Assembly: GCA_034231615.1 (NCBI GenBank)
Contig: CM067311.1
Span: 19,906,173 to 19,970,172, forward strand
Direction of reading: 5' to 3'
From: Meghimatium bilineatum
Lineage: Eukaryota > Mollusca > Gastropoda > Stylommatophora > Philomycidae
DNA: 64,000 nt
The notes below the pieces were generated by a model. The model did no database searches. It saw only the letters and a list, made by a program, of their open reading frames with translations, and was not told the DNA's origin. Each line of letters starts with the position of its first letter. Within the stretch, counting starts at the first letter, position 1. Positions 1-64,000 of this stretch are shown in pieces. The translations under genes and the position numbers were made by a program.

Positions 1-819
1 TCAAAACTTAGTGTTCTGTGGAATATTACTCACAAATTGGTGTACTGCAGCTTACTACACCAGAATTTGTAGTCTGGACACACGCAATTGGTGTATTCCA
101 GCTTACTACGTTAGAACTCGGTGTTTTCTGGCATATTACTGACAAATTCATTGTACTGAAGCTTACTACACTAGAATTGATTGTATTCTGGCATATTACA
201 CATGACTTCGTTGTTTTGCAGATTGATACGTAAGAACACTGGCGTATTACACACAAATTAGGTCTTGCTGTTTAGTATGTGAAAAGTCAGTGTTCTATGG
301 CATATTAATCACAAATTGGGTGTACTGCAGCTTACTACACCAGAATTTGTAGTCTGGACACACGCATTTGGTGTATTCCAGCTTACTACGTTAGAACTCG
401 GTGTTTTCTGGCATATTACTCACAAATTGGGCGTACTGCAGCTTACTACACCAGAATTTGTAATCTGGACACACGCAATTGGTGTATTCCAGCTTACTAC
501 GTTAGAACTCGGTGTTTTCTGGCATATTACTCACAAATTCATTGTACTGAAGCTTACAACACTAGAATTGAGTGTATTCTGGCATATTACACATGACTTC
601 GTTGTTTTGCAGCTTAATACGTAAGAACACTGGCGTATTGCACACAAATTAGGTCTCTTGCTGTTTAGTACGTCAAAACTCAGTGTTCTGTGGAATATTA
701 CTCACAAATTGGGTGTACTGCAGCTTTCTACACCAGAATTTGTAGTCTGGACACACGCATTTGGTGTATTCCAGCTTACTACGTTAGAACTCGGAGTTTT
801 CTGGCATATTACTCACAAA

Positions 820-870
820 TTCATTGTACTGCAGCTTACTACACCAGAATTTGTAGTCTGGACACACGCA
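820..870 (+). repeat. C/A hybrid module (type copy)
   Basis: A 51-bp module begins as C (TTCATTGTAC) and continues as A from TGCAGCTTACTACACC to GGACACACGCA. It reads FIVLQLTTPEFVVWTHA. It occurs repeatedly in the left flank, right transition and right flank and was not seen between about 10.4 and 49.7 kb. Confidence 0.82.
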
Positions 871-1150
871 TTTGGTGTATTCCAGCTTACTACGTTAGAA
901 CTCGGAGTTTTCTGGCATATTACTCACAAATTCATTGTACTGAAGCTTACTACACTAGAATTGAGTGTATTCTGGCCTATTATACATGATTCTGTTGTAT
1001 TGCAGCATAATACGTCAGAATACTGCCGTTTTACACACAAATTAGGTCTTGCTGTTTAGTATGTCAAAAGTCAGTGTTCTATGGCATATTACTCACAAAT
1101 TGGGTGTACTGCAGCTTACTACACCAGAATTTGTAGTCTGGACACACGCA

Positions 1151-1201
1151 TTTGGTGTATTCAAGCTTAATACGTAAGAACACTGGCGTATTGCACACAA
1201 A
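1151..1201 (+). repeat. B/D hybrid module (type copy)
   Basis: A 51-bp module begins as X-type B (TTTGGTGTATTCAAGCTTAA) and ends as D0 (TACGTAAGAACACTGGCG...). It closes the short 162-bp E-A-B/D unit. The switch lies in AGCTTAATACG, which both parents share, as expected for unequal crossover within homology. The same junction recurs throughout both flanks, so it was amplified after forming once. Confidence 0.85.
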
Positions 1202-1311
1202 TTAGGTCTCTTGCTGTTTAGTACGTCAAAACTTAGTGTTCTGTGGAATATTACTCACAAATTGGTGTACTGCAGCTTACTACACCAGAATTTGTAGTCT
1301 GGACACACGCA

Positions 1312-1371
1312 TTTGGTGTATTCCAGCTTACTACGTAAAAACTCAGTGTTCTATGGAATACTACTCACAAA
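1312..1371 (+). repeat. B/E hybrid module (type copy)
   Basis: A 60-bp module begins as B (TTTGGTGTATTCCAGC) and passes through CTACGTAAAAACTCAGTG into an E-type ending. It recurs near 2370, 3428, 5824, 10168, 55016, 56511, 59942 and 63171, so it is flank-specific. Confidence 0.82.
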
Positions 1372-1704
1372 TTGGGTGTACTGCAGCTTACTACACCAGA
1401 ATTTGTAGTCTGGACACACGCATTTGGTGTATTCCAGCTTACTACGTTAGAACTCGGTGTTTTCTGGCATATTACTCACAAATTGGGCGTACTGCAGCTT
1501 ACTACACCAGAATTTGTAATCTGGACACACGCAATTGGTGTATTCCAGCTTACTACGTTAGAACTCGGTGTTTTCTATCATATTACTCACAAATTCATTG
1601 TACTGAAGCTTACAACACTAGAATTGAGTGTATTCTGGCATATTACACATGACTTCGTTGTTTTGCAGCTTAATACGTAAGAACACTGGCGTATTGCACA
1701 CAAA

Positions 1705-1766
1705 TTAGGTCTCTTGCTGTTTAGTACGTTAGAACTCGGAGTTTTCTGTGGAATATTACTCACAAA
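1705..1766 (+). repeat. Unique 62-bp E/B/E hybrid module
   Basis: This module starts as E0 (TTAGGTCTCTTGCTG), switches to B (ACGTTAGAACTCGGAGTTTT), then returns to an E ending (CTGTGGAATATTAC). The double switch adds two bases. I saw no second copy in the window. A short gene-conversion tract or two close crossovers would produce it. Confidence 0.8.
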
Positions 1767-3818
1767 TTGGGTGTACTGCAGCTTACTACACCAGAATTTG
1801 TAGTCTGGACACACGCATTTGGTGTATTCCAGCTTACTACGTTAGAACTCGGAGTTTTCTGGCATATTACTCACAAATTCATTGTACTGCAGCTTACTAC
1901 ACCAGAATTTGTAGTCTGGACACACGCATTTGGTGTATTCCAGCTTACTACGTTAGAACTCGGAGTTTTCTGGCATATTACTCACAAATTCATTGTACTG
2001 AAGCTTACTACACTAGAATTGAGTGTATTCTGGCCTATTATACATGATTCTGTTGTATTGCAGCATAATACGTCAGAATACTGCCGTTTTACACACAAAT
2101 TAGGTCTTGCTGTTTAGTATGTCAAAAGTCAGTGTTCTATGGCATATTACTCACAAATTGGGTGTACTGCAGCTTACTACACCAGAATTTGTAGTCTGGA
2201 CACACGCATTTGGTGTATTCAAGCTTAATACGTAAGAACACTGGCGTATTGCACACAAATTAGGTCTCTTGCTGTTTAGTACGTCAAAACTTAGTGTTCT
2301 GTGGAATATTACTCACAAATTGGTGTACTGCAGCTTACTACACCAGAATTTGTAGTCTGGACACACGCATTTGGTGTATTCCAGCTTACTACGTAAAAAC
2401 TCAGTGTTCTATGGAATACTACTCACAAATTGGGTGTACTGCAGCTTACTACACCAGAATTTGTAGTCTGGACACACGCATTTGGTGTATTCCAGCTTAC
2501 TACGTTAGAACTCGGTGTTTTCTGGCATATTACTCACAAATTGGGCGTACTGCAGCTTACTACACCAGAATTTGTAATCTGGACACACGCAATTGGTGTA
2601 TTCCAGCTTACTACGTTAGAACTCGGTGTTTTCTATCATATTACTCACAAATTCATTGTACTGAAGCTTACAACACTAGAATTGAGTGTATTCTGGCATA
2701 TTACACATGACTTCGTTGTTTTGCAGCTTAATACGTAAGAACACTGGCGTATTGCACACAAATTAGGTCTCTTGCTGTTTAGTACGTCAAAACTCAGTGT
2801 TCTGTGGAATATTACTCACAAATTGGGTGTACTGCAGCTTACTACACCAGAATTTGTAGTCTGGACACACGCATTTGGTGTATTCCAGCTTACTACGTTA
2901 GAACTCGGAGTTTTCTGGCATATTACTCACAAATTCATTGTACTGCAGCTTACTACACCAGAATTTGTAGTCTGGACACACGCATTTGGTGTATTCCAGC
3001 TTACTACGTTAGAACTCGGAGTTTTCTGGCATATTACTCACAAATTCATTGTACTGAAGCTTACTACACTAGAATTGAGTGTATTCTGGCCTATTATACA
3101 TGATTCTGTTGTATTGCAGCATAATACGTCAGAATACTGCCGTTTTACACACAAATTAGGTCTTGCTGTTTAGTATGTCAAAAGTCAGTGTTCTATGGCA
3201 TATTACTCACAAAATGGGTGTACTGCAGCTTACTACACCAGAATTTGTAGTCTGGACACACGCATTTGGTGTATTCAAGCTTAATACGTAAGAACACTGG
3301 CGTATTGCACACAAATTAGGTCTCTTGCTGTTTAGTACGTCAAAACTTAGTGTTCTGTGGAATATTACTCACAAATTAGTGTACTGCAGCTTACTACACC
3401 AGAATTTGTAGTCTGGACACACGCATTTGGTGTATTCCAGCTTACTACGTAAAAACTCAGTGTTCTATGGAATATTACTCACAAATTGGGTGTACTGCAG
3501 CTTACTACACCAGAATTTGTAGTCTGGACACACGCATTTGGTGTAGTCCAGCTTACTACGTTAGAACTCGGAGTTTTCTGTCATATTACTCACAAATTCA
3601 TTGTACTGCAGCTTACTACACCAGAATTTGTAGTCTGGACACACGCATTTGGTGTATTCCAGCTTACTACGTTAGAACTCGGTGTTTTCTGGCATATTAC
3701 TGACAAATTCATTGTATTGAAGCTTACTACACTAGAATTGATTGTATTCTGGCCTATTACACATGACTTCGTTGTTTTGCAGATTGATACGTAAGAACAC
3801 TGGCGTATTACACACAAA

Positions 3819-6489
3819 TTAGGTCTTGCTGTTTAGTATGTCAAAAGTCAGTGTTCTATGGCATATTACTCACAAATTGGGTGTACTGCAGCTTACTACA
3901 CCAGAATTTGTATGGACACACGCATTTGGTGTATTCAAGCTTAATACGTTAGAACTCGGTGTTTTCTGGCATATTACTCACAAATTGGGTGTACTGCAGC
4001 TTACTACACCAGAATTTGTAGTCTGGACACACGCAATTGGTGTATTCCAGCTTACTACGTTAGAACTCGGTGTTTTCTGGCATATTACTCACAAATTCAT
4101 TGTACTGAAGCTTACAACACTAGAATTGAGTGTATTCTGGCATATTACACATGACTTCGTTGTTTTGCAGCTTAATACGTAAGAACACTGGCGTATTGCA
4201 CAGAAATTAGGTCTCTTGCTGTTTAGTACGTCAAAACTCAGTGTTCTGTGGAATATTACTCACAAATTGGGTGTACTGCAGCTTACTACACCAGAATTTG
4301 TAGTCTGGACACACGCATTTGGTGTATTCCAGCTTTCTACGTTAGAACTCGGTGTTTTCTGGCATATTACTCACAAATTGGGTGTACTGCAGCTTACTAC
4401 ACCAGAATTTGTAGTCTGGACACACGCATTTGGTGTATTCCAGCTTACTACGTTAGAACTCGGTGTTTTCTGGCATATTACTCACAAATTCATTGTACTG
4501 AAGCTTACTACACTAGAATTGAGTGTATTCTGGCCTATTATACATGATTCTGTTGTATTGCAGCATAATACGTCAGAATACTGGCGTATTACACACAAAT
4601 TAGGTCTTGCTGTTTAGTACGTCAAAACTCAGTGTTCTATGGCATATTACTCACAAATTGGGTGTACTGCAGCTTACTACACCAGATTTTGTAGTCTGGA
4701 CACACGCATTTGGTGTATTCAAGCTTAATACGTAAGAACACTGGCGTATTGCACACAAATTAGGTCTCTTGCTGTTTAGTACGTCAAAACTTAGTGTTCT
4801 GTGGAATATTACTCACAAATTGGTGTACTGCAGCTTACTACACCAGAATTTGTAGTCTGGACACACGCATTTGGTGTATTCCAGCTTACTACGTTAGAAC
4901 TCGGTGTTTTCTGGCATATTACTGACAAATTCATTGTACTGAAGCTTACTACACTAGAATTGATTGTATTCTGGCCTATTACACATGACTTCGTTGTTCT
5001 GCAGATTGATACGTAAGAACACTGGCGTATTACACACAAATTAGGTCTTGCTGTTTAGTATGTCAAAAGTCAGTGTTCTATGACATATTACTCACAAATT
5101 GGGTGTACTGCAGCTTACTACACCAGAATTTGTAGTCTGGACACACGCATTTGGTGTATTCAAGCTTAATACGTTAGAACTCGGTGTTTTCTGGCATATT
5201 ACTCACAAATTGGGTGTACTGCAGCTTACTACACCAGAATTTGTAGTCTGGACACACGCAATTGGTGTATTCCAGCTTACTACGTTAGAACTCGGTGTTT
5301 TCTGGCATATTACTCACAAATTCATTGTACTGAAGCTTACAACACTAGAATTGAGTGTATTCTGGCATATTACACATGACTTCGTTGTTTTGCAGCTTAA
5401 TACGTAAGAACACTGGCGTATTGCACACAAATTAGGTCTCTTGCTGTTTAGTACGTCAAAACTCAGTGTTCTGTGGAATATTACTCACAAATTGGGTGTA
5501 CTGCAGCTTACTACACCAGAATTTGTAGTCTGGACACACGCAATTGGTGTATTCCAGCTTTCTACGTTAGAACTCGGTGTTTTCTGGCATATTACTCACA
5601 AATTCATTGTACTGAAGCTTACTACACTAGAATTGAGTGTATTCTGGCCTATTATACATGATTCTGTTGTATTGCAGCATAATACGTCAGAATACTGCCG
5701 TATTACACACAAATTAGGTCTTGCTGTTTAGTATGTCAAAAGTCAGTGTTCTATGGCATATTACTCACAAATTGGGTGTACTGCAGCTTACTACACCAGA
5801 ATTTGTAGTCTGGACACACGCATTTGGTGTATTCAAGCTTACTACGTAAAAACTCAGTGTTCTATGGAATATTACTCACAAATTGGGTGTACTGCTGCTT
5901 ACTACACCAGAATTTGTAGTCTGGACACACGCATTTGGTGTAGTCCAGCTTACTACGTTAGAACTCGGAGTTTTCTGGCATATTACTCACAAATTCATTG
6001 TACTGCAGCTTACTACACCAGAATTTGTAGTCTGGACACACGCATTTGGTGTATTCCAGCTTACTACGTTAGGACTCGGAGTTTTCTGGCATATTACTCA
6101 CAAATTCATTGTACTGAAGCTTACTACACTAGAATTGATCTGGCCTATTATACATGATTCTGTTGTATTGCAGCATAATACGTCAGAATACTGGCGTATT
6201 ACACACAAATTAGGTCTTGCTGTTTAGTATGTCAAAACTCAGTGTTTTCTGGCATATTACTCACAAATTGGGTGTACTGCAGCTTACTACACCAGAATTT
6301 GTAGTCTGGACACACGCATTTGGTGTATTCCAGCTTACTACGTTAGAACTCGGTGTTTTCTGGAATATTACTGACAAATTCATTGTATTGAAGCTTACTA
6401 CACTAGAATTGATTGTATTCTGGCCTATTACACATGACTTCGTTGTTTTGCAGATTGATACGTAAGAAAACTGGCGTATTACACACAAA
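3819..6489 (+). repeat. 2671-bp super-repeat, first of three related copies
   Basis: Unit order is 390, 391, 162, 279, 393, 280, 496, 280 bp. It shares its first part with 6490-8273 and 8274-10057 (A with the 3-bp deletion near 3912; CCAGATTTTGTAG near 4683, matching 7354 and 9138). It carries about 0.78 kb (near 5715-6489) that the other two lack at this place, including a C module shortened by 6 bp (GAATTGATCTGGCC near 6131). Confidence 0.85.
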
Positions 6490-9400
6490 TTAGGTCTTGC
6501 TGTTTAGTATGTCAAAAGTCAGTGTTCTTTGGCATATTACTCACAAATTGGGTGTACTGCAGCTTACTACACCAGAATTTGTATGGACACACGCATTTGG
6601 TGTATTCAAGCTTAATACGTTAGAACTCGGTGTTTTCTGGCATATTACTCACAAATTGGGTGTACTGCAGCTTACTACACCAGAATTTGTAGTCTGGACA
6701 CACGCAATTGGTGTATTCCAGCTTACTACGTTAGAACTCGGTGTTTTCTGGCATATTACTCACAAATTCATTGTACTGAAGCTTACAACACTAGAATTGA
6801 GTGTATTCTGGCATATTACACATGACTTCGTTGTTTTGCAGCTTAATACGTAAGAACACTGGCGTATTGCACACAAATTAGGTCTCTTGCTGTTTAGTAC
6901 GTCAAAACTCAGTGTTCTGTGGAATATTACTCACAAATTGGGTGTACTGCAGCTTACTACACCAGAATTTGTAGTCTGGACACACGCATTTGGTGTATTC
7001 CAGCTTTCTACGTTAGAACTCGGTGTTTTCTGGCATATTACTCACAAATTGGGTGTACTGCAGCTTACTACACCAGAATTTGTAGTCTGGACACACGCAT
7101 TTGGTGTATTCCAGCTTACTACGTTAGAACTCGGTGTTTTCTGGCATATTACTCACAAATTCATTGTACTGAAGCTTACTACACTAGAATTGAGTGTATT
7201 CTGGCCTATTATACATGATTCTGTTGTATTGCAGCATAATACGTCAGAATACTGGCGTATTACACACAAATTAGGTCTTGCTGTTTAGTACGTCAAAACT
7301 CAGTGTTCTATGGCATATTACTCACAAATTGGGTGTACTGCAGCTTACTACACCAGATTTTGTAGTCTGGACACACGCATTTGGTGTATTCAAGCTTAAT
7401 ACGTAAGAACACTGGCGTATTGCACACAAATTAGGTCTCTTGCTGTTTAGTACGTCAAAACTTAGTGTTCTGTGGAATATTACTCACAAATTGGTGTACT
7501 GCAGCTTACTACACCAGAATTTGTAGTCTGGACACACGCATTTGGTGTATTCCAGCTTACTACGTTAGAACTCGGTGTTTTCTGGCATATTACTGACAAA
7601 TTCATTGTACTGAAGCTTACTACACTAGAATTGATTGTATTCTGGCCTATTACACATGACTTCGTTGTTTTGCAGATTGATACGTAAGAACACTGGCGTA
7701 TTACACACAAATTAGGTCTTGCTGTTTAGTATGTCAAAAGTCAGTGTTCTATGACATATTACTCACAAATTGGGTGTACTGCAGCTTACTACACCAGAAT
7801 TTGTAGTCTGGACACACGCATTTGGTGTATTCAAGCTTAATACGTTAGAATTCGGTGTTTTCTGGCATATTACTCACAAATTGGGTGTACTGCAGCTTAC
7901 TACACCAGAATTGAGTGTATTCTGGCATATTACACATGACTTCGTTGTTTTGCAGCTTAATACGTAAGAACACTGGCGTATTGCACACAAATTAGGTCTC
8001 TTGCTGTTTAGTACGTCAAAACTCAGTGTTCTGTGGAATATTACTCACAAATTGGGTGTACTGCAGCTTACTACACCAGAATTTGTAGTCTGGACACACG
8101 CAATTGGTTTATTCCAGCTTTCTACGTTAGAACTCGGTGTTTTCTGGCATATTACTCACAAATTGGGTGTACTGCAGCTTACTACACCAGAATTGAGTGT
8201 ATTCTGGCATATTACACATGACTTCGTTGTTTTGCAGATTGATACGTAAGAAAACTGGCGTATTACACACAAATTAGGTCTTGCTGTTTAGTATGTCAAA
8301 AGTCAGTGTTCTATGGCATATTACTCACAAATTGGGTGTACTGCAGCTTACTACACCAGAATTTGTATGGACACACGCATTTGGTGTATTCAAGCTTAAT
8401 ACGTTAGAACTCGGTGTTTTCTGGCATATTACTCACAAATTGGGTGTACTGCAGCTTACTACACCAGAATTTGTAGTCTGGACACACGCAATTGGTGTAT
8501 TCCAGCTTACTACGTTAGAACTCGGTGTTTTCTGGCATATTACTCACAAATTCATTGTACTGAAGCTTACAACACTAGAATTGAGTGTATTCTGGCATAT
8601 TACACATGACTTCGTTGTTTTGCAGCTTAATACGTAAGAACACTGGCGTATTGCACACAAATTAGGTCTCTTGCTGTTTAGTACGTCAAAACTCAGTGTT
8701 CTGTGGAATATTACTCACAAATTGGGTGTACTGCAGCTTACTACACCAGAATTTGTAGTCTGGACACACGCATTTGGTGTATTCCAGCTTTCTACGTTAG
8801 AACTCGGTGTTTTCTGGCATATTACTCACAAATTGGGTGTACTGCAGCTTACTACACCAGAATTTGTAGTCTGGACACACGCATTTGGTGTATTCCAGCT
8901 TACTACGTTAGAACTCGGTGTTTTCTGGCATATTACTCACAAATTCATTGTACTGAAGCTTACTACACTAGAATTGAGTGTATTCTGGCCTATTATACAT
9001 GATTCTGTTGTATTGCAGCATAATACGTCAGAATACTGGCGTATTACACACAAATTAGGTCTTGCTGTTTAGTACGTCAAAACTCAGTGTTCTATGGCAT
9101 ATTACTCACAAATTGGGTGTACTGCAGCTTACTACACCAGATTTTGTAGTCTGGACACACGCATTTGGTGTATTCAAGCTTAATACGTAAGAACACTGGC
9201 GTATTGCACACAAATTAGGTCTCTTGCTGTTTAGTACGTCAAAACTTAGTGTTCTGTGGAATATTACTCACAAATTGGTGTACTGCAGCTTACTACACCA
9301 GAATTTGTAGTCTGGACACACGCATTTGGTGTATTCCAGCTTACTACGTTAGAACTCGGTGTTTTCTGGCATATTACTGACAAATTCATTGTACTGAAGC

Positions 9401-10057
9401 TTACTACACTAGAATTGATTGTATTCTGGCCTATTACACATGACTTCGTTGTTTTGCAGATTGATACGTAAGAACACTGGCGTATTACACACAAATTAGG
9501 TCTTGCTGTTTAGTATGTCAAAAGTCAGTGTTCTATGACATATTACTCACAAATTGGGTGTACTGCAGCTTACTACACCAGAATTTGTAGTCTGGACACA
9601 CGCATTTGGTGTATTCAAGCTTAATACGTTAGAACTCGGTGTTTTCTGGCATATTACTCACAAATTGGGTGTACTGCAGCTTACTACACCAGAATTGAGT
9701 GTATTCTGGCATATTACACATGACTTCGTTGTTTTGCAGCTTAATACGTAAGAACACTGGCGTATTGCACACAAATTAGGTCTCTTGCTGTTTAGTACGT
9801 CAAAACTCAGTGTTCTGTGGAATATTACTCACAAATTGGGTGTACTGCAGCTTACTACACCAGAATTTGTAGTCTGGACACACGCAATTGGTTTATTCCA
9901 GCTTTCTACGTTAGAACTCGGTGTTTTCTGGCATATTACTCACAAATTCATTGTACTGAAGCTTACTACACTAGAATTGAGTGTATTCTGGCCTATTATA
10001 CATGATTCTGTTGTATTGCAGCATAATACGTCAGAATACTGCCGTATTACACACAAA
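6490..10057 (+). repeat. Two tandem copies of a 1784-bp super-repeat
   Basis: Copies are 6490-8273 and 8274-10057, with the same order of unit lengths (390, 391, 162, 279, 282, 280). Both contain A/C hybrids of 60 bp (CACCAGAATTGAGTG): 7881-7940 and 8163-8222 in the first copy, 9665-9724 in the second. In the second copy the position matching 8163 is an ordinary C, so one hybrid has been gained or lost since the duplication. Confidence 0.86.
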
Positions 10058-10827
10058 TTAGGTCTTGCTGTTTAGTATGTCAAAAGTCAGTGTTCTATGG
10101 CATATTACTCACAAATTGGGTGTACTGCAGCTTACTACACCAGAATTTGTAGTCTGGACACACGCATTTGGTGTATTCAAGCTTACTACGTAAAAACTCA
10201 GTGTTCTATGGAATATTACTCACAAATTGGGTGTACTGCTGCTTACTACACCAGAATTTGTAGTCTGGACACACGCATTTGGTGTAGTCCAGCTTACTAC
10301 GTTAGAACTCGGAGTTTTCTGGCATATTACTCACAAATTCATTGTACTGCAGCTTACTACACCAGAATTTGTAGTCTGGACACACGCATTTGGTGTATTC
10401 CAGCTTACGTTAGAACTCGGTGTTTTCTGGCATATTACTCACAAATTGGGTGTACTGCAGCTTACTACACCAGAATTTGTAGTCTGGACACACGCATTTG
10501 GTGTATTCCAGCTTACTACGTTAGAACTCGGTGTTTTCTGGCATATTACTCACAAATTCATTGTACTGAAGCTTACTACACTAGAATTGAGTGTATTCTG
10601 GCCTATTATACATGATTCTGTTGTATTGCAGCATAATACGTCAGAATACTGGCGTATTACACACAAATTAGGTCTTGCTGTTTAGTACGTCAAAACTCAG
10701 TGTTCTATGGCATATTACTCACAAATTGGGTGTACTGCAGCTTACTACACCAGAATTTGTAGTCTGGACACACGCATTTGGTGTATTCAAGCTTAATACG
10801 TAAGAACACTGGCGTATTGCACACAAA
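10058..10827 (+). repeat. Left-flank end segment with 610-bp unit
   Basis: One long unit (E1, A, B/E, A, B, C/A, B, A, B, C, D2) is followed by a 162-bp E-A-B/D unit. It holds the last D2 of the left side (near 10635). One B near 10401 has lost three bases (CAGCTTACGTTAG). The start matches 5721 onward, including the A variant TACTGCTGCTTAC (near 5888 and 10236). Confidence 0.8.
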
Positions 10828-13800: not shown

Positions 13801-14307
13801 ATTAGGTCTCTTGCTGTTTAGTACGTCAAAACTCAGTGTTCTGTGGAATATTACTCACAAATTGGGTGTACTGCAGCTTACTACACCAGAATTTGTAGTC
13901 TGGACACACGCATTTGGTGTATTCCAGCTTACTACGTTAGAACTCGGTGTTTTCTGGCATATTACTCACAAATTGGGTGTACTGCAGCTTACTACACCAG
14001 AATTTGTAGTCTGGACACACGCATTTGGTGTATTCCAGCTTACTACGTTAGAACTCGGTGTTTTCTGGCATATTACTCACAAATTGGGTGTACTGCAGCT
14101 TACTACACCAGAATTTGTAGTCTGGACACACGCATTTGGTGTATTCCAGCTTACTACGTTAGAACTCGGTGTTTTCTCTGGCATATTACTGACAAATTCA
14201 TTGTACTGAAGCTTACTACACTAGAACTGATTGTATTCTGGCCTATTACACATGACTTCGTTGTTTTGCAGATTGATACGTAAGAACACTGGCGTATTAC
14301 ACACAAA
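10828..14307 (+). repeat. Left transition zone: 1740-bp tandem duplication
   Basis: Copies are 10828-12567 and 12568-14307. Unit order is about 279, 282, 280, 393, 506 (504 in the second). They share ACAACGCTAG (near 11299 and 13039), TACGTAAAAACACTGG (near 11080 and 12820) and a two-base insertion TTTTCTCTGGC (12431-12440 and 14171-14180). Few differences are visible, for instance CTATGGAATATT near 11709 against CTATGGCATATT near 13449. The zone mixes outer markers (TTGGTGTACTG after AACTTAGTG) with the core marker GTCTGGTCACAC (near 11767 and 13507). Confidence 0.88.
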
Positions 14308-15652: not shown

Positions 15653-15710
15653 TTAGGTCTTGCTGTTTAGTATGTCAAAAGTCAGTGTTCTATGGCATAT
15701 TACTCACAAA
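15653..15710 (+). repeat. Module E1 (58 bp) reference copy
   Basis: E1 begins TTAGGTCTTGCTG, two bases shorter than E0, and usually carries TATGTCAAAAGTCAG and CTATGGCATATTAC. The two-base loss puts the upstream D frame onto the TAG of GTTTAG, so any reading through D1 or D2 ends here. It follows D1 or D2, which makes D-E a linked haplotype. Confidence 0.92.
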
Positions 15711-15992
15711 TTGGGTGTACTGCAGCTTACTACACCAGAATTTGTAGTCTGGTCACACGCATTTGGTGTATTCAAGCTTAATACGTTAGAACTCGGTGTT
15801 TTCTGGCATATTACTCACAAATTGGGTGTACTGCAGCTTACTACACCAGAATTTGTAGTCTGGACACACGCAATTGGTGTATTCCAGCTTACTACGTTAG
15901 AACTCGGTGTTTTCTGGCATATTACTCACAAATTCATTGTACTGAAGCTTACAACACTAGAATTGAGTGTATTCTGGCATATTACACATGAC

Positions 15993-51506: not shown

Positions 51507-53179
51507 TTAGGTCTTGCTGTTTAGTATGTCAAAAGTCAGTGTTCTATGGCATATTACTCACAAATTGGGTGTACTGCAGCTTATGACACCAGAATTTGTA
51601 TGGACACACGCATTTGGTGTATTCAAGCTTAATACGTTAGAATTCGGTGTTTTCTGGCATATTACTCACAAATTGGGTGTACTGCAGCTTACTACACCAG
51701 AATTTGTAGTCTGGACACACGCAATTGGTGTATTCCAGCTTACTACGTTAGAACTCGGTGTTTTCTGGCATATTACTCACAAATTCATTGTACTGAAGCT
51801 TACGACACTAGAATTGAGTGTATTCTGGCATATTACACATGACTTCGTTGTTTTGCAGCTTAATACGTAAGAACACTGGCGTATTGCACACAAATTAGGT
51901 CTCTTGCGGTTTAGTACGTCAAAACTCAGTGTTCTGTGGAATATTACTCACAAATTGGGTGTACTGCAGCTTACTACACCAGAATTTGTAGTCTGGACAC
52001 ACGCATTTGGTGTATTCCAGCTTACTACGTTAGAACTCGGTGTTTTCTGGCATATTACTCACAAATTGGGTGTACTGCAGCTTACTACACCAGAATTTGT
52101 AGTCTGGACACACGCATTTGGTGTATTCCAGCTTACTACGTTAGTACTCGGTGTTTTCTGGCATATTACTCACAAATTGGGTGTACTGCAGCTTACTACA
52201 CCAGAATTTGTATTCTGGACACACGCATTTGGTGTATTCCAGCTTACTACGTTAGAACTCGGTGTTTTCTGGCATATTACTGACAAATTCATTGTACTGA
52301 AGCTTACTACACTAGAATTGATTGTATTCTGGCCTATTACACATGACTTCGTTGTTTTGCAGATTGATACGTAAGAACACTGGCGTATTACACACAAATT
52401 AGGTCTTGCTGTTTAGTATGTCAAAAGTCAGTGTTCTATGGCATATTACTCACAAATTGGGTGTACTGCAGCTTACTACACCAGAATTTGTAGTCTGGAC
52501 ACACGCATTTGGTGTATTCCAGCTTACTACGTTAGAACTCGGTGTTTTCTGGCACATTACTCACAAATTGGGTGTACTGCAGCTTACTACACCAGAATTT
52601 GTAGTCTGGACACACGCAATTGGTGTATTCCAGCTTACTACGTTAGAACTCGGTGTTTTCTGGCATATTACTGACAAATTCATTGTTCTGAAGCTTACAC
52701 TAGAATTGATTGTATTCTGGCCTATTACACATGACTTCGTTGTTGTGCAGCTTGATACGTAAGAACACTGGCGTATTGCACACAAATTAGGTCTCTTGCT
52801 GTTTGGTACGTCAAAACTCAGTGTTCTGTGGAATATTACTCACAAATTAGGTGTACTGCAGCTTACTACACCAGAATTTGTAGTCTGGACACACGCATTT
52901 GGTGTAGTCCAGCTTACTACGTTAGAACTCGGAGTTTTCTGGCATATTACTCACAAATTCATTGTACTGCAGCTTACTACACCAGAATTTGTAGTCTGGA
53001 CACACGCATTTGGTGTATTCCAGCTTACTACGTTAGAACTCGGAGTTTTCTGGCATATTACTCACAAATTCATTGTACTGAAGCTTACTACACTAGAATT
53101 GATTGTATTCTGGCCTATTATACATGATTCTGTTGTATTGCAGCATAATACGTCAGAATACTGGCGTATTACACACAAA
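51507..53179 (+). repeat. Right transition to flank segment
   Basis: E-module TTG landmarks fall at 51514, 51904 (here CTCTTGCGGTTTAG), 52406 and 52796. The segment holds the flank marker TTTGTATGGACAC (near 51594) beside core markers GGCACATTACTC (near 52552), AAGCTTACACTAG (near 52690) and TTTGGTACG (near 52802), the last copies of these in the window. ACGTTAGTACTCGG near 52138 links it to the duplication before it. Confidence 0.83.
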
Positions 53180-54742
53180 TTAGGTCTTGCTGTTTAGTAT
53201 GTCAAAACTCAGTGTTTTCTGGCATATTACTCACAAATTGGGTGTACTGCAGCTTACTACACCAGAATTTGTAGTCTGGACACACGCATTTGGTGTATTC
53301 CAGCTTACTACGTTAGAACTCGGTGTTTTCTGGCATATTACTGACAAATTCATTGTATTGAAGCTTACTACACTAGAATTGATTGTATTCTGGCCTATTA
53401 CACATGACTTCGTTGTTTTGCAGATTGATACGTAAGAACACTGGCGTATTACACACAAATTAGGTCTTGCTGTTTAGTATGTCAAAAGTCAGTGTTCTAT
53501 GGCATATTACTCACAAATTGGGTGTACTGCAGCTTACTACACCAGAATTTGTATGGACACACGCATTTGGTGTATTCAAGCTTAATACGTTAGAATTCGG
53601 TGTTTTCTGGCATATTACTCACAAATTGGGTGTACTGCAGCTTACTACACCAGAATTTGTAGTCTGGACACACGCAATTGGTGTATTCCAGCTTACTACG
53701 TTAGAACTCGGTGTTTTCTGGCATATTACTCACAAATTCATTGTACTGCAGCTTACTACACCAGAATTTGTAGTCTGGACACACGCATTTGGTGTATTCC
53801 AGCTTACTACGTTAGAACTCGGTGTTTTCTGGCATATTACTCACAAATTCATTGTACTGAAGCTTAGTACACTAGAATTGAGTGTATTCTGGCCTATTAT
53901 ACATGATTCTGTTGTATTGCAGCATAATACGTCAGAATACTGGCGTATTACACACAAATTAGGTCTTACTGTTTAGTACGTCAAAACTCAGTGTTCTATG
54001 GCATATTACTCACAAATTGGGCGTACTGCAGCTTACTACACCAGAATTTGTAGTCTGGACACACGCATTTGGTGTATTCAAGCTTAATACGTTAGAACTC
54101 GGTGTTTTCTGGCATATTATTAAAAAATTGGGTGTACTGCAGCTTACTACACCAGAATTTGTAGTCTGGACACACGCAATTGGTGTATTCCAGCTTACTA
54201 CGTTAGAACTCGGTGTTTTCTGGCATATTACTCACAAATTCAGTGTACTGAAGCTTACAACACTAGAATTGAGTGTATTCTGGCATATTACACATGACTT
54301 CGTTGTTTTGCAGCTTAATACGTAAGAACACTGGCGTATTGCACACAAATTAGGTCTCTTGCTGTTTAGTACGTCAAAACTCAGTGTTCTGTGGAATATT
54401 ACTCACAAATTGGGTGTACTGCAGCTTACTACACCAGAATTTGTAGTCTGGACACACGCATTTGGTGTATTCCAGCTTACTACGTTAGAACTCGGTGTTT
54501 TCTGGCATATTACTCACAAATTGGGTGTACTGCAGCTTACTACACCAGAATTTGTAGTCTGGACACACGCAATTGGTGTATTCCAGCTTTCTACGTTAGA
54601 ACTCGGTGTTTTCTGGCATATTACTCACAAATTCATTGTACTGAAGCTTACTACACTAGAATTGAGTGTATTCTGGCCTATTATACATGATTCTGTTGTA
54701 TTGCAGCATAATACGTCAGAGTACTGGCGTATTACACACAGA
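53180..54742 (+). repeat. Right-flank entry segment
   Basis: Units of 280, 499, 393 and 391 bp. The 499-bp unit joins the 3-bp-deleted A (near 53550), an ordinary A-B, a C/A hybrid and D2. Its C has TGAAGCTTAGTACAC (near 53861), seen also near 58247 and 59182. The first ATTATTAAAAAATTGGG copy lies near 54116. Confidence 0.8.
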
Positions 54743-56237
54743 TTAGGTCTTGCTGTTTAGTATGTCAAAAGTCAGTGTTCTATGGCATATTACTCACAAA
54801 TTGGGTGTACTGCAGCTTACTACACCAGAATTTGTAGTCTGGACACACGCATTTGGTGTATTCAAGCTTAATACGTAAGAACACTGGCGTATTGCACACA
54901 AATTAGGTCTCTTGCTGTTTAGTACGTCAAAACTTAGTGTTCTGTGGAATATTACTCACAAATTGGTGTACTGCAGCTTACTACACCAGAATTTGTAGTC
55001 TGGACACACGCATTTGGTGTATTCCAGCTTACTACGTAAAAACTCAGTGTTCTATGGAATATTACTCACAAATTGGGTGTACTGCAGCTTACTACACCAG
55101 AATTTGTAGTCTGGACACACGCATTTGGTGTAGTCCAGCTTACTACGTTAGAACTCGGAGTTTTCTGGCATATTACTCACAAATTCATTGTACTGCAGCT
55201 TACTACACCAGAATTTGTAGTCTGGACACACGCATTTGGTGTAGTCCAGCTTACTACGTTAGGACTCGGAGTTTTCTGGCATATTACTCACAAATTCATT
55301 GTACTGAAGCTTACTACACTAGAATTGATTGTATTCTGGCCTATTATACATGATTCTGTTGTATTGCAGCATAATACGTCAGAATACTGGCGTATTACAC
55401 ACAAATTAGGTCTTGCTGTTTAGTACGTCAAAACGCAGTGTTCTATGGCATATTACTCACAAATTGGGTGTACTGCAGCTTACTACACCAGAATTTGTAG
55501 TCTGGACACACGCATTTGGTGTATTCAAGCTTAATACGTAAGAACACTGGCGTATTGCACACAAATTAGGTCTCTTGCTGTTTAGTACGTCAAAACTTAG
55601 TGTTCTGTGGAATATTACTCACAAATTGGTGTACTGCAGCTTACTACACCAGAATTTGTAGTCTGGACACACGCATTTGGTGTATTCCAGCTTACTACGT
55701 TAGACCTCGGTGTTTTCTGGCATATTACTGACAAATTCATTGTACTGAAGCTTACTACACTAGAATTGATTGTATTCTGGCCTATTACACATGACTTCGT
55801 TGTTTTGCAGATTGATACGTAAGAACACTGGCTTATTACACACAAATTAGGTCTTGCTGTTTAGTATGTCAAAAGTCAGTGTTCTATGACATATTACTCA
55901 CAAATTGGGTGTACTGCAGCTTACTACACCAGAATTTGTAGTCTGGACACACGCATTTGGTGTATTCAAGCTTAATACGTTAGAACTCGGTGTTTTCTGG
56001 CATATTATTAAAAAATTGGGTGTACTGCAGCTTACTACACCAGAATTTGTAGTCTGGACACACGCAATTGGTGTATTCCAGCTTACTACGTTAGAACTCG
56101 GTGTTTTCTGGCATATTACTCACAAATTCATTGTACTGAAGCTTACAACACTAGAATTGAGTGTATTCTGGCATATTACACATGATTCTGTTGTATTGCA
56201 GCATAATACGTCAGAGTACTGGCGTATTACACACAAA
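54743..56237 (+). repeat. Right-flank super-repeat, short copy (1495 bp)
   Basis: Units 162, 501, 162, 279, 391. The first four match the starts of the next two super-repeats. The last joins an X-type C (CATATTACACATGATT near 56169) directly to D2, which is a local recombinant. GGCTTATTACAC near 55830 and CAAAACGCAGTG near 55428 are markers shared with the later copies. Confidence 0.86.
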
Positions 56238-59200
56238 TTAGGTCTTGCTGTTTAGTATGTCAAAAGTCAGTGTTCTATGGCATATTACTCACAAATTGGG
56301 TGTACTGCAGCTTACTACACCAGAATTTGTAGTCTGGACACACGCATTTGGTGTATTCAAGCTTAATACGTAAGAACACTGGCGTATTGCACACAAATTA
56401 GGTCTCTTGCTGTTTAGTACGTCAAAACTTAGTGTTCTGTGGAATATTACTCACAAATTGGTGTACTGCAGCTTACTACACCAGAATTTGTAGTCTGGAC
56501 ACACGCATTTGGTGTATTCCAGCTTACTACGTAAAAACTCAGTGTTCTATGGAATATTACTCACAAATTGGGTGTACTGCAGCTTACTACACCAGAATTT
56601 GTAGTCTGGACACACGCATTTGGTGTAGTCCAGCTTACTACGTTAGAACTCGGAGTTTTCTGGCATATTACTCACAAATTCATTGTACTGCAGCTTACTA
56701 CACCAGAATTTGTAGTCTGGACACACGCATTTGGTGTAGTCCAGCTTACTACGTTAGGACTCGGAGTTTTCTGGCATATTACTCACAAATTCATTGTACT
56801 GAAGCTTACTACACTAGAATTGATTGTATTCTGGCCTATTATACATGATTCTGTTGTATTGCAGCATAATACGTCAGAATACTGGCGTATTACACACAAA
56901 TTAGGTCTTGCTGTTTAGTACGTCAAAACGCAGTGTTCTATGGCATATTACTCACAAATTGGGTGTACTGCAGCTTACTACACCAGAATTTGTAGTCTGG
57001 ACACACGCATTTGGTGTATTCAAGCTTAATACGTAAGAACACTGGCGTATTGCACACAAATTAGGTCTCTTGCTGTTTAGTACGTCAAAACTTAGTGTTC
57101 TGTGGAATATTACTCACAAATTGGTGTACTGCAGCTTACTACACCAGAATTTGTAGTCTGGACACACGCATTTGGTGTATTCCAGCTTACTACGTTAGAA
57201 CTCGGTGTTTTCTGGCATATTACTGACAAATTCATTGTACTGAAGCTTACTACACTAGAATTGATTGTATTCTGGCCTATTACACATGACTTCGTTGTTT
57301 TGCAGATTGATACGTAAGAACACTGGCTTATTACACACAAATTAGGTCTTGCTGTTTAGTATGTCAAAAGTCAGTGTTCTATGACATATTACTCACAAAT
57401 TGGGTGTACTGCAGCTTACTACACCAGAATTTGTAGTCTGGACACACGCATTTGGTGTATTCAAGCTTAATACGTTAGAACTCGGTGTTTTCTGGCATAT
57501 TATTAAAAAATTGGGTGTACTGCAGCTTACTACACCAGAATTTGTAGTCTGGACACACGCAATTGGTGTATTCCAGCTTACTACGTTAGAACTCGGTGTT
57601 TTCTGGCATATTACTCACAAATTCATTGTACTGAAGCTTACAACACTAGAATTGAGTGTATTCTGGCATATTACACATGACTTCGTTGTTTTGCAGCTTA
57701 ATACGTAAGAACACTGGCGTATTGCACACAAATTAGGTCTCTTCCTGTTTACTACGTCAAAACTCAGTGTTCTGTGGAATATTACTCACAAATTGGGTGT
57801 ACTGCAGCTTACTACACCAGAATTTGTAGTCTGGACACACGCATTTGGTGTATTCCAGCTTACTACGTTAGAACTCGGTGTTTTCTGGCATATTACTCAC
57901 AAATTGGGTGTACTGCAGCTTACTACACCAGAATTTGTATGGACACACGCATTTGGTGTATTCAAGCTTAATACGTTAGAATTCGGTGTTTTCTGGCATA
58001 TTACTCACAAATTGGGTGTACTGCAGCTTACTACACCAGAATTTGTATGGACACACGCATTTGGTGTATTCAAGCTTAATACGTTAGAATTCGGTGTTTT
58101 CTGGCATATTACTCACAAATTGGGTGTACTGCAGCTTACTACACCAGAATTTGTAGTCTGGACACACGCAATTGGTGTATTCCAGCTTACTACGTTAGAA
58201 CTCGGTGTTTTCTGGCATATTACTCACAAATTCATTGTACTGAAGCTTAGTACACTAGAATTGAGTGTATTCTGGCCTATTATACATGATTCTGTTGTAT
58301 TGCAGCATAATACGTCAGAATACTGGCGTATTACACACAAATTAGGTCTTGCTGTTTAGTACGTCAAAACTCAGTGTTCTATGGCATATTACTCACAAAT
58401 TGGGCGTACTGCAGCTTACTACACCAGAATTTGTAGTCTGGACACACGCATTTGGTGTATTCAAGCTTAATACGTAAGAACACTGGCGTATTGCACACAA
58501 ATTAGGTCTCTTGCTGTTTAGTACGTCAAAACTTAGTGTTCTGTGGAATATTACTCACAAATTGGTGTACTGCAGCTTACTACACCAGAATTTGTAGTCT
58601 GGACACACGCATTTGGTGTATTCCAGCTTACTACGTTAGAACTCGGTGTTTTCTGGCATATTACTGACAAATTCATTGTACTGAAGCTTACTACACTAGA
58701 ATTGATTGTATTCTGGCCTATTACACATGACTTCGTTGTTTTGCAGATTGATACGTAAGAACACTGGCGTATTACACACAAATTAGGTCTTGCTGTTTAG
58801 TATGTCAAAAGTCAGTGTTCTATGGCATATTACTCACAAATTGGGTGTACTGCAGCTTACTACACCAGAATTTGTATGGACACACGCATTTGGTGTATTC
58901 AAGCTTAATACGTTAGAATTCGGTGTTTTCTGGCATATTACTCACAAATTGGGTGTACTGCAGCTTACTACACCAGAATTTGTAGTCTGGACACACGCAA
59001 TTGGTGTATTCCAGCTTACTACGTTAGAACTCGGTGTTTTCTGGCATATTACTCACAAATTCATTGTACTGCAGCTTACTACACCAGAATTTGTAGTCTG
59101 GACACACGCATTTGGTGTATTCCAGCTTACTACGTTAGAACTCGGTGTTTTCTGGCATATTACTCACAAATTCATTGTACTGAAGCTTAGTACACTAGAA

Positions 59201-59673
59201 TTGAGTGTATTCTGGCATATTACACATGACTTCGTTGTTTTGCAGCTTAATACGTAAGAACACTGGCGTATTGCACACAAATTAGGTCTCTTGCTGTTTA
59301 GTACGTCAAAACTCAGTGTTCTGTGGAATATTACTCACAAATTGGGTGTACTGCAGCTTACTACACCAGAATTTGTAGTCTGGACACACGCATTTGGTGT
59401 ATTCCAGCTTACTACGTTAGAACTCGGTGTTTTCTGGCATATTACTCACAAATTGGGTGTACTGCAGCTTACTACACCAGAATTTGTAGTCTGGACACAC
59501 GCAATTGGTGTATTCCAGCTTTCTACGTTAGAACTCGGTGTTTTCTGGCATATTACTCACAAATTCATTGTACTGAAGCTTACAACACTAGAATTGAGTG
59601 TATTCTGGCCTATTCACATGATTCTGTTGTATTGCAGCATAATACGTCAGAGTACTGGCGTATTACACACAAA
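56238..59673 (+). repeat. Right-flank super-repeat (3436 bp)
   Basis: Units 162, 501, 162, 279, 393, 607, 162, 279, 501, 390. The 607-bp unit has a tandem pair of deleted-A/X-B modules (near 57937 and 58050), so the array grew by one 108-bp A-B step there. Its E reads CTTCCTGTTTACTACG near 57741. The last unit's C has lost one base (CCTATTCACATG near 59609). Confidence 0.87.
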
Positions 59674-62600
59674 TTAGGTCTTGCTGTTTAGTATGTCAAA
59701 AGTCAGTGTTCTATGGCATATTACTCACAAATTGGGTGTACTGCAGCTTACTACACCAGAATTTGTAGTCTGGACACACGCATTTGGTGTATTCAAGCTT
59801 AATACGTAAGAACACTGGCGTATTGCACACAAATTAGGTCTCTTGCTGTTTAGTACGTCAAAACTTAGTGTTCTGTGGAATATTACTCACAAATTGGTGT
59901 ACTGCAGCTTACTACACCAGAATTTGTAGTCTGGACACACGCATTTGGTGTATTCCAGCTTACTACGTAAAAACTCAGTGTTCTATGGAATATTACTCAC
60001 AAATTGGGTGTACTGCAGCTTACTACACCAGAATTTGTAGTCTGGACACACGCATTTGGTGTAGTCCAGCTTACTACGTTAGAACTCGGAGTTTTCTGGC
60101 ATATTACTCACAAATTCATTGTACTGCAGCTTACTACACCAGAATTTGTAGTCTGGACACACGCATTTGGTGTAGTCCAGCTTACTACGTTAGGACTCGG
60201 AGTTTTCTGGCATATTACTCACAAATTCATTGTACTGAAGCTTACTACACTAGAATTGATTGTATTCTGGCCTATTATACATGATTCTGTTGTATTGCAG
60301 CATAATACGTCAGAATACTGGCGTATTACACACAAATTAGGTCTTGCTGTTTAGTACGTCAAAACGCAGTGTTCTATGGCATATTACTCACAAATTGGGT
60401 GTACTGCAGCTTACTACACCAGAATTTGTAGTCTGGACACACGCATTTGGTGTATTCAAGCTTAATACGTAAGAACACTGGCGTATTGCACACAAATTAG
60501 GTCTCTTGCTGTTTAGTACGTCAAAACTTAGTGTTCTGTGGAATATTACTCACAAATTGGTGTACTGCAGCTTACTACACCAGAATTTGTAGTCTGGACA
60601 CACGCATTTGGTGTATTCCAGCTTACTACGTTAGAACTCGGTGTTTTCTGGCATATTACTGACAAATTCATTGTACTGAAGCTTACTACACTAGAATTGA
60701 TTGTATTCTGGCCTATTACACATGACTTCGTTGTTTTGCAGATTGATACGTAAGAACACTGGCTTATTACACACAAATTAGGTCTTGCTGTTTAGTATGT
60801 CAAAAGTAAGTGTTCTATGACATATTACTCACAAATTGGGTGTACTGCAGCTTACTACACCAGAATTTGTAGTCTGGACACACGCATTTGGTGTATTCAA
60901 GCTTAATACGTTAGAACTCGGTGTTTTCTGGCATATTATTAAAAAATTGGGTGTACTGCAGCTTACTACACCAGAATTTGTAGTCTGGACACACGCAATT
61001 GGTGTATTCCAGCTTACTACGTTAGAACTCGGTGTTTTCTGGCATATTAATCACAAATTCATTGTACTGAAGCTTACAACACTAGAATTGAGTGTATTCT
61101 GGCATATTACACATGACTTCGTTGTTTTGCAGCTTAATACGTAAGAACACTGGCGTATTGCACACAAATTAGGTCTCTTGCTGTTTACTACGTCAAAACT
61201 CAGTGTTCTGTGGAATATTACTCACAAATTGGGTGTACTGCAGCTTACTACACCAGAATTTGTAGTCTGGACACACGCATTTGGTGTATTCCAGCTTACT
61301 ACGTTAGAACTCGGTGTTTTCTGGCATATTACTCACAAATTGGGTGTACTGCAGCTTACTACACCAGAATTTGTAGTCTGGACACACGCAATTGGTGTAT
61401 TCCAGCTTTCTACGTTAGAACTCGGTGTTTTCTGGCATATTACTCACAAATTCATTGTACTGAAGCTTACTACACTAGAATTGAGTGTATTCTGGCCTAT
61501 TATACATGATTCTGTTGTATTGCAGCATAATACGTCAGAGTACTGGCGTATTACACACAAATTAGGTCTTGCTGTTTAGTATGTCAAAAGTCAGTGTTCT
61601 ATGGCATATTACTCACAAATTGGGTGTACTGCAGCTTACTACACCAGAATTTGTAGTCTGGAAACACGCATTTGGTGTATTCAAGCTTAATACGTAAGAA
61701 CACTGGCGTATTGCACACAAATTAGGTCTCTTGCTGTTTAGTACGGCAAAACTTAGTGTTCTGTGGAATATTACTCACAAATTGGGTGTACTGCAGCTTA
61801 CTACACCAGAATTTGTAGTCTGGACACACGCATTTGGTGTATTCCAGCTTCCTACGTTAGAACTCGGTGTTTTCTGGTATATTACTCACAAATTGGGTGT
61901 ACTGCAGCTTACTACACCAGAATTTGTAGTCTGGACACACGCATTTGGTGTATTCCAGCTTACTACGTTAGAACTCGGAGTTTTCTGGCATATTACTGAC
62001 AAATTCATTGTACTGAAGCTTACTACACTAGAATTGATTGTATTCTGGCCTATTACACATGACTTCGTTGTTTTGCAGATTGATACGTAAGAACACTGGC
62101 GTATTACACACAAATTAGGTCTTGCTGTTTAGTATGTCAAAAGTCAGTGTTCTATGACATATTACTCACAAATTGGGTGTACTGCAGCTTACTACACCAG
62201 AATTTGTAGTCTGGACACACGCATTTGGTGTATTCAAGCTTAATACGTTAGAACTCGGTGTTTTCTGGCATATTATTAAAAAATTGGGTGTACTGCAGCT
62301 TACTACACCAGAATTTGTAGTCTGGACACACGCAATTGGTGTATTCCAGCTTACTACGTTAGAACTCGGTGTTTTCTGGCATATTACTCACAAATTCAGT
62401 GTACTGAAGCTTACAACACTAGAATTGAGTGTATTCTGGCATATTACACATGACTTCGTTGTTTTGCAGCTTAATACGTAAGAACACTGGCGTATTGCAC
62501 ACAAATTAGGTCTCTTGCTGTTTAGTACGTCAAAACTCAGTGTTCTGTGGAATATTACTCACAAATTGGGTGTACTGCAGCTTACTACACCAGAATTTGT

Positions 62601-62897
62601 AGTCTGGACACACGCATTTGGTGTATTCCAGCTTACTACGTTAGAACTCGGTGTTTTCTGGCATATTACTCACAAATTGGGTGTACTGCAGCTTACTACA
62701 CCAGAATTTGTAGTCTGGACACACGCAATTGGTGTATTCCAGCTTTCTACGTTAGAACTCGGTGTTTTCTGGCATATTACTCACAAATTCATTGTACTGA
62801 AGCTTACAACACTAGAATTGAGTGTATTCTGGCCTATTCACATGATTCTGTTGTATTGCAGCATAATACGTCAGAGTACTGGCGTATTACACACAAA
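59674..62897 (+). repeat. Right-flank super-repeat (3224 bp)
   Basis: Units 162, 501, 162, 279, 393, 391, 162, 391, 393, 390. The first four match 56238 onward at offset 3436. The last unit (62515-62904) matches 59291 at offset 3224, including the one-base loss in CCTATTCACATG. Private changes include GGCATATTAATCAC near 61042, GGAAACACGC near 61660, TACGGCAAAACTTAG near 61742 and GCTTCCTACG near 61848. Confidence 0.87.
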
Positions 62898-64000
62898 TTA
62901 GGTCTTGCTGTTTAGTATGTCAAAAGTCAGTGTTCTATGGCATATTACTCACAAATTGGGTGTACTGCAGCTTACTACACCAGAATTTGTAGTCTGGACA
63001 CACGCATTTGGTGTATTCAAGCTTAATACGTAAGAACACTGGCGTATTGCACACAAATTAGGTCTCTTGCTGTTTAGTACGTCAAAACTTAGTGTTCTGT
63101 GGAATATTACTCACAAATTGGTGTACTGCAGCTTACTACACCAGAATTTGTAGTCTGGACACACGCATTTGGTGTATTCCAGCTTACTACGTAAAAACTC
63201 AGTGTTCTATTGAATATTACTCACAAATTGGGTGTACTGCAGCTTACTACACCAGAATTTGTAGTCTGGACACACGCATTTGGTGTAGTCCAGCTTACTA
63301 CGTTAGAACTCGGAGTTTTCTGGCATATTACTCACAAATTCATTGTACTGCAGCTTACTACACCAGAATTTGTAGTCTGGACACACGCATTTGGTGTAGT
63401 CCAGCTTACTACGTTAGGACTCGGAGTTTTCTGGCATATTACTCACAAATTCATTGTACTGAAGCTTACTACACTAGAATTGATTGTATTCTGGCCTATT
63501 ATACATGATTCTGTTGTATTGCAGCATAATACGTCAGAATACTGGCGTATTACACACAAATTAGGTCTTGCTGTTTAGTACGTCAAAACGCAGTGTTCTA
63601 TGGCATATTACTCACAAATTGGGTGTACTGCAGCTTACTACACCAGAATTTGTAGTCTGGACACACGCATTTGGTGTATTCAAGCTTAATACGTAAGAAC
63701 ACTGGCGTATTGCACACAAATTAGGTCTCTTGCTGTTTAGTACGTCAAAACTTAGTGTTCTGTGGAATATTACTCACAAATTGGTGTACTGCAGCTTACT
63801 ACACCAGAATTTGTAGTCTGGACACACGCATTTGGTGTATTCCAGCTTACTACGTTAGAACTCGGTGTTTTCTGGCATATTACTGACAAATTCATTGTAC
63901 TGAAGCTTACTACACTAGAATTGATTGTATTCTGGCCTATTACACATGACTTCGTTGTTTTGCAGATTGATACGTAAGAACACTGGCTTATTACACACAA
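62898..64000 (+). repeat. Right-flank super-repeat, truncated by window end
   Basis: Units 162, 501, 162 and the start of a 279-bp unit repeat 59674 onward at offset 3224. A private change is CTATTGAATATT near 63208. The window stops one base before the end of a D1 module bearing GGCTTATTACAC. Confidence 0.87.

Follow-up and report, generated by a model that had tools for sequence, protein, structure and literature searches.

Layers in satellite arrays are generally taken to record successive centromere expansions, and the question raised by the stretch of DNA studied here is whether its own layers can be read in this way. This stretch, 64,000 bp of Meghimatium bilineatum (GCA_034231615.1, contig CM067311.1, positions 19,906,173 to 19,970,172 of the forward strand; hereafter, the window), is occupied from position 1 to 64000 by a single unbroken satellite array on the plus strand, for which an initial annotation proposed nested, roughly symmetric layers of repeat variants laid down by expansions from the middle. 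We found two sequence domains arranged as F-C-F, where F denotes the flanks (1-10.8 and 53.4-64 kb) and C the centre (14.2-48.6 kb), with locally amplified hybrid junctions between them, mutual exclusion of private variants, and a well-mixed centre. This flank-centre-flank layering, which comprises one level, exceeds chance; of the layering initially proposed, the outer level (F outside C) is thus upheld, while the deeper nested layers do not rise clearly above chance.

The array is non-coding satellite DNA of the eukaryote-type, higher-order-repeat (HOR) kind. A two-seed decomposition yielded 2293 monomers, mostly 22-30 bp in length, that alternate in a single orientation between two related basic types of about 30 bp. 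Ten monomer classes in the order h-i-j-a-b-c-d-e-f-g form a 282-bp 10-mer HOR, which occurs without inserts or with one to three insertions of a 111-bp group, b-c-d-e, giving modules of approximately 390, 500, and 610 bp. Cutting the array at h produced 176 rows, including 66 14-mers, 45 plain 10-mers, 29 18-mers (with two inserts), 17 modules of 160 bp with the order hijabc, and 19 others; the first and last modules are truncated at the window ends, and one row, at 26415 (28 monomers), represents two modules, an h variant having been classed as d. A 60-bp period shows 59-65% matches in most rows, indicating diverged monomers inside the unit, and tiles of 800 bp have a median best identity of 99.4-99.6% within their own region, indicating near-identical units. 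None of the 8663 self matches of the window is on the minus strand.

Two domains in the order flank-centre-flank

Eleven marker strings on which the initial annotation was based were found, on the plus strand only, at the ranges claimed for them. With domain borders for string counts set at 10.8, 14.2, 48.6, and 53.4 kb, the flank strings GCATAATACGTC (24 copies), GTAGTCCAGC (14 copies), and TTTGTATGGACAC (8 copies) have no copy in the core (14.2-48.6 kb), and the central strings GTCTGGTCACAC (24 copies), TACGTACGAAC (20), GGCACATTAC (16), TTTGGTACG (16), AAGCTTACACTAG (16), GAATATAGTG (9), TCAAACTCAGTTCTG (5), and ATTACTTACAAA (9) have none in either flank. A unit described as 162 bp long is limited to the flanks, as was claimed, but its actual length is 160 bp; this is the hijabc module, whose last start in the left flank is at 10,621 (7 copies) and whose first start in the right flank is at 54,696 (10 copies). 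The "C/A hybrids" of the annotation, which we took to mean modules with a d-a junction, were also confined to the flanks, with five of the nine starting at or before 10,011 and four starting at or after 54,856. At 49.5-52.9 kb, markers of the flanks and of the centre occur together, and the layers are not cleanly separated in this part.

Of the 51 monomer variants that have five or more copies, five are present in the left and the right flank but have no copy in the centre, a number that was not reached in any of 3000 block shuffles with either 2-kb or 4-kb blocks (means of 0.03 and 0.08, respectively). Another 12 of the 51 variants are found only in the centre, as compared to 1.19 in shuffles of 2-kb blocks (P 0.0003) and 2.03 in shuffles of 4-kb blocks (P 0.013). 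Two other null models showed no excess of flank sharing (means of 2.22 for circular rotation and 4.41 for a non-wrapping slide, with 5 observed); these were set aside, and the block shuffle used instead, because they keep the gap of each variant or move it whole. Tile similarity provided further evidence for the two domains; distance alone gave an R2 of 0.107, distance together with the F/C label gave 0.405, and distance together with radial position (centre at 30-32 kb) gave 0.440-0.450, a gain equalled in none of 500 block shuffles.

A module tree was built from 150 of the 176 modules, with 26 rows, including the 17 short flank modules, left out; 131 modules outside the junctions were labelled. 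The F/C label changes only 5 times on this tree, as compared to a mean of 29.6 for shuffled labels and a minimum of 7 for rotated labels, and F and C hence represent nearly separate clades. With regard to left versus right flank, 9 changes were counted (mean of 12.8 and minimum of 9 in 200 shuffles; 12% of rotations give as few), and the left and right flank modules are thus partly separated.

Nesting and homogeneity of the centre

Nesting within domain C is not established. In the core at 14-48 kb, radial position contributes a gain of 0.043 (P 0.17-0.42), other core ranges gave P values of 0.14-0.80, and similarity does not decay with distance (R2 0.000). A range of 12-50 kb, which takes in junction sequence, yielded P values of 0.013-0.057 for radial position; similarly, a P of 0.004 in the first test of the centre was obtained with 22 tiles that had junctions among them, while the core alone was not significant. 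On the module tree, a label for the inner layer (21-44.5 kb) requires 21 changes versus 19.6 for shuffled labels, i.e., it shows no clade structure; a label for the innermost layer (34.5-44.7 kb) requires 12 changes versus 17.0 when shuffled, with a borderline rotation fraction of 0.057. TCAAACTCAGTTCTG has five copies, of which four are located at 33.9-43.6 kb and the fifth at 21.2 kb.

The nestedness of 22 centre-only variants with at least three copies is 0.398, i.e., less nested than random (0.514). Without six border-local variants the value is 0.675, more nested than random (P 0.011), and nestedness is likewise raised for the 14 centre-only variants with at least four copies (0.703 versus 0.512 random; P 0.012) and for the 12 with at least five copies (P 0.038). 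When linked variants were merged into 4-9 groups, this excess was gone (P 0.45-1.0). As linked variants share modules and the excess vanishes upon merging, the inner layers that were initially described represent real positions but few independent events. A mirror order of far core partners was also considered and rejected; among 55 far core pairs with at least 99% identity, midpoints are not tighter than random (P 0.86), and the left-right coordinate correlation is 0.441 versus 0.376 for random.

The evidence on whether the centre is, as expected, the most homogeneous part is mixed. The number of distinct 21-mers per 8 kb is 982-1074 at 16-48 kb versus 1205-1467 elsewhere, junctions included, as would be expected of a more uniform centre; a larger variety of modules is, however, also found in the flanks and junctions. 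By contrast, median best identity within blocks of 10.7 kb shows no gradient, with values of 99.38% in the left flank (L), 98.88%, 99.00%, and 99.75% in three centre blocks (C1, C2, and C3), and 99.38% in the right flank (R); the highest value is that of the block at 37.9-48.6 kb, which overlaps the repeated units at 34302..44853.

A full layered expansion in the style of human centromeres, with at least three nested generations centred at approximately 34-44 kb, would account for the lower number of distinct 21-mers, the high best-match identity of the block at 37.9-48.6 kb, the nestedness of the 14 variants with at least four copies, and the borderline label of the innermost layer. We nevertheless consider this explanation very unlikely, given that the nestedness is lost when linked variants are merged (P of at least 0.45), that the core has neither radial structure nor separation of inner from outer modules on the tree, and that, by best-match identity, the flanks are more homogeneous than C1 and C2. 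The proposed successive expansions from the middle are thus not established.

Kinship of the flanks and copying over long distances

Copies that are 99-100% alike lie near one another in the left flank, the centre, and the right flank, and identical tiles of 1000 bases occur. Between equal-sized blocks, median best identity is 97.69% for L and R, 6% of tiles reaching at least 99%, and 99.19% for C1 and C3, which are 13 kb apart, with 60% of tiles at this level; for core tiles separated by 30-35 kb, the median is 99.00% (n=19). This difference in identity suggests that the separation of the flanks predates the last mixing of the core, although distance is only partly controlled in the comparison, no core pair being as far apart as the flanks. 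The core itself is a patchwork of shared multi-kb blocks, e.g., 22.2-25.3 kb with 44.5-47.6 kb (98.8%) and 14.0-17.6 kb with 31.0-34.6 kb (97.3%).

Since C and its right border contain blocks of 2-3.6 kb that recur 13-33 kb away at 97-99% identity, long-range copying does occur in this array, and the two flanks could in principle be copies rather than halves, either through copying of an F block across C or through duplication of F and C together as a unit of approximately 53 kb. We regard this as unlikely, as L and R lack long collinear stretches (the longest L-R match among those with at least 95% identity covers 1839 columns, at 96.1%) and as each flank has private variants of its own (4 left and 6 right, with at least three copies each).

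The flank-only variants look derived. Monomer h4 resembles a recombinant of monomers d2 and h1, with the parents agreeing over a 12-bp zone, AGCTTAATACGT, and monomer d5 consists of d1 joined to a j-like end, with one mismatch within the last 14 bases. Another apparent recombinant is limited to one flank; at 7665-8226 and 9449-9728, three 10-mer modules end in e-b-g with an apparent b/f hybrid monomer, GTGTACTGCAGCTTACTACACCAGAATTGA, which has 3 copies, all in the left flank.

Proposed amplification of one lineage inside another

The explanation that we favour, with a probability of roughly 0.54, is that one C lineage was amplified inside an older F array via duplication of multi-kb blocks, followed by local turnover everywhere. 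Under this explanation, F and C would be sister lineages from one ancestral two-module HOR, and F would originally have been contiguous. A short series of modules lacking the recombinants specific to F may then have been amplified inside F, either by exchange out of register or by the duplication of multi-kb blocks, and the growing C would have pushed the two halves of F apart while homogenising within itself. All parts, flanks included, would afterwards have kept turning over locally, and hybrid units would have arisen at the junctions and been amplified 2-3 fold. Owing to its 160-bp and d-a modules, F is out of register with C, and this difference in register may confine exchange to each domain. 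Extending this last point, a more speculative and rather doubtful view is that the HOR itself sets homogenisation domains, with register mismatch, and not age or chromatin, making the layers. Exchange might, on this equally tentative view, be free over more than 30 kb in C and stop at the border with the out-of-register 160-bp and d-a flank modules, and the hybrid units amplified right at the borders could, with the same reservation, be its cross-products.

Steady-state turnover offers a different account, in which random duplication and deletion create a patchwork and the window happens to catch C between two stretches of F, with no central expansion. Only three segments are visible, the core lacks radial order, duplications at 99-100% identity are present in all three parts, and nestedness is within chance once linked variants are merged, all of which this account accommodates. 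We compared it with focal expansion, in which a short seed is amplified, by simulation, using simple models with hand-set parameters and counting as a success the appearance of three observed traits together. With blocks of approximately 20 modules and an equal mutation rate, focal expansion succeeded 7 times in 30 runs, as compared to 2 times in 30 for steady-state turnover. None of the runs under other steady-state settings combined the three traits (0/60, 0/120, and, with conversion models included and a slightly different boundary search, 0/200); other focal settings gave 2/30 at a lower rate, 1/30 after later whole-array turnover, 0/60 with smaller blocks, and 0/80. Because the parameters were hand-chosen, the simulations show only that a focal account can work. 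We consider steady-state turnover possible but doubtful.

Several observations weigh against amplification of C inside F. Kinship of the flanks is uneven, with 15 of 27 left tiles of 800 bp closer to the right flank and 12 closer to the core, and with 18 of 25 right tiles closer to the left flank and 7 closer to the core; this is probably due to ordinary modules common to F and C. The flanks are not older by local best-match identity. The C-private variants, when compared by eye to their sister monomers, also look derived, and F is hence not simply the ancestor; because flank-only and centre-only variants both look derived, F and C are best seen as sister lineages. As only two boundaries are visible, the F-C-F order may be just a section of an array in which F and C alternate, and as copying inside C spans more than 30 kb, flank sharing could have come about by transfer. 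Finally, the simulations favour the focal account weakly, the difference between 7 and 2 of 30 runs being small, the parameters hand-set, and success under the other focal settings low.

An assembly artefact, i.e., similar repeats wrongly joined by the assembler, is hardly credible as an explanation of the pattern. While identical tiles of 1000 bases occur and the judgement is made from the assembled sequence alone, the hybrid junctions hold private variants in several copies and the order of modules is regular.

Features of the array and searches for coding and related sequences

The coordinates of the domains and of individual features are listed in Table 1. In the left junction, the two copies are 99.7-99.8% alike by tiles, and an F-type j/a module lies between them at 12521. 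The hybrid units of the right junction mix the C markers TTTGGTACG, AAGCTTACACTAG, and GTCTGGTCACAC with the F markers GCATAATACGTC and GTAGTCCAGC and contain private variants, e.g., TTGTTCTGAAGCTTACACTAGAATTGA, with 3 copies; these units represent local amplification at a domain border. Within C, the units at 38624-42142 and 41190-44710 are 99.35% identical over 3521 columns. At 25001-28626, tiles of 1000 bases are 100% identical 2126 bp apart; this very recent duplication does not fall within the layer supposed to be innermost.

Table 1. Domains, junctions, and selected repeat features of the array (positions in the window).
Feature	Position	Strand	Description
Left flank, domain F	1..10780	+	10 modules with GCATAATACGTC; 7 hijabc modules of 160 bp; 5 d-a junction modules
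Left junction	10781..14260	+	Two copies, offset by 1740 bp, of a stretch of about 1.46 kb (11062-12520) with C marker GTCTGGTCACAC
Centre core, domain C	14261..48609	+	Lacks the three flank strings and the 160-bp and d-a modules; C-only variants
Recent local amplification in C	24743..29292	+	Offset 2126 bp; 99.34% over 2424 columns
Repeated multi-kb units in C	34302..44853	+	38624-42142 versus 41190-44710, offset 2566 bp; carry ATTACTTACAAA
Right junction	48610..53911	+	Three hybrid units of 1565-1673 bp (48610-53412), then one transitional module
Right flank, domain F	53912..64000	+	10 hijabc modules of 160 bp; 4 d-a junction modules; right-only variants
Flank-only monomer h4, example	1155..1176	+	17 copies: 7 left, 10 right, 0 centre

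At 40-208 and in similar stretches, the usual monomer lengths are 27 bp for b, 24 bp for c, and 30 bp for d, e, f, and g, all multiples of three; by eye, one reading frame is open across the group b-c-d-e, while g and the h-i-j part contain stops. Because frames of 10 codons are often open by chance, this open frame is probably a by-product of the repeat. The window contains 29 listed open reading frames (ORFs) of at least 150 aa, the longest of 287 aa; in 4 of these 29 ORFs, which were scanned against Pfam, no family reached its cut-off (the best match, with an E value of 0.0014, was weak), and on this basis a coding repeat was rejected. A tRNA search of the window found none, and an Rfam search of the window gave no match reaching the gathering score.

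A bacterial, phage, or plasmid origin was likewise rejected; the only exact 21-base match in the genome-contig collection was to a contig of a Bacteroides metagenome-assembled genome, and this match was taken as chance because a local comparison extends it over only 24 bases. Two patterns had no match in viral contigs, and one query of 2795 bases had no match in plasmids and phages. No sequence relative of the array was found in the genome-contig, viral, plasmid, and phage collections searched, none of which is a collection of eukaryote genomes. Strings of the array sequence and an HOR of 30-bp monomers had no match in the open-licence main texts searched, although the satellite may still be published.

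Comparison with known systems

Human and ape alpha satellite arrays have been reported to form mirror-symmetric layers around a homogeneous core, and the layered-expansion model, as set out in the same reports, expects the flanks to be older and more divergent (PMC8099727, PMC9549924). Like alpha satellite, e.g., that of chromosome 8, the window is an HOR array with near-identical HOR copies, and its left and right blocks are closer to each other than to the middle. The differences are considerable. Alpha satellite monomers measure 171 bp and its arrays extend over megabases, as compared to monomers of mostly 22-30 bp and 64 kb seen here; the account of human chromosome 8 reports five layers (PMC8099727), as compared to one established layer in the window; and, unlike alpha satellite centromeres as described in these reports, the window has no clear centre-to-edge gradient of divergence. 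Neither the 171-bp monomer of alpha satellite nor the CENP-B box present in part of its monomers was found in the window, where a pattern for the box had 0 matches on either strand.

In plant centromeres, layering in which a younger repeat is symmetrically flanked by older ones has been read as new repeats expanding inside old (PMC11406182, PMC10910784), and the symmetric flanking in the window resembles that described for the centromeres of Papaver and Brachypodium. As described for Papaver, the layers are different satellites, with PCEN338 flanked by others (PMC11406182), whereas the domains of the window are variants of one HOR. The layering in Brachypodium is linked with retrotransposons in the corresponding account (PMC10910784); the decomposition of the window is uninterrupted, with no search aimed at retrotransposons having been made. 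With regard to monomer length, the window is similar to plant satellites with monomers of 26-59 bp, which also combine short monomers with long arrays. In Vicia faba, FokI repeats of 59/57 bp, with an AT content of 59.3%, and VfSat2 repeats of approximately 26 bp have been described (PMC5895790), and the AT content of the window, from base counts, is 60.7%. This comparison is by description only, and no HOR of the kind found in the window is described for these satellites in the parts of PMC5895790 on which it draws.

The F-C-F layering is hence a known kind of pattern, found here in a satellite that has no match in the collections searched. As a worked case, the window illustrates how allowing for linked variants and for interval lengths reduces a nesting that is convincing by eye to one established level. 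Kinship and ageing of the flanks, which the layered model couples, also come apart here: the former is present, while the evidence for the latter is mixed. In addition, the lack of decay of similarity with distance within the borders of a domain can be measured, and models of satellite turnover should reproduce it.

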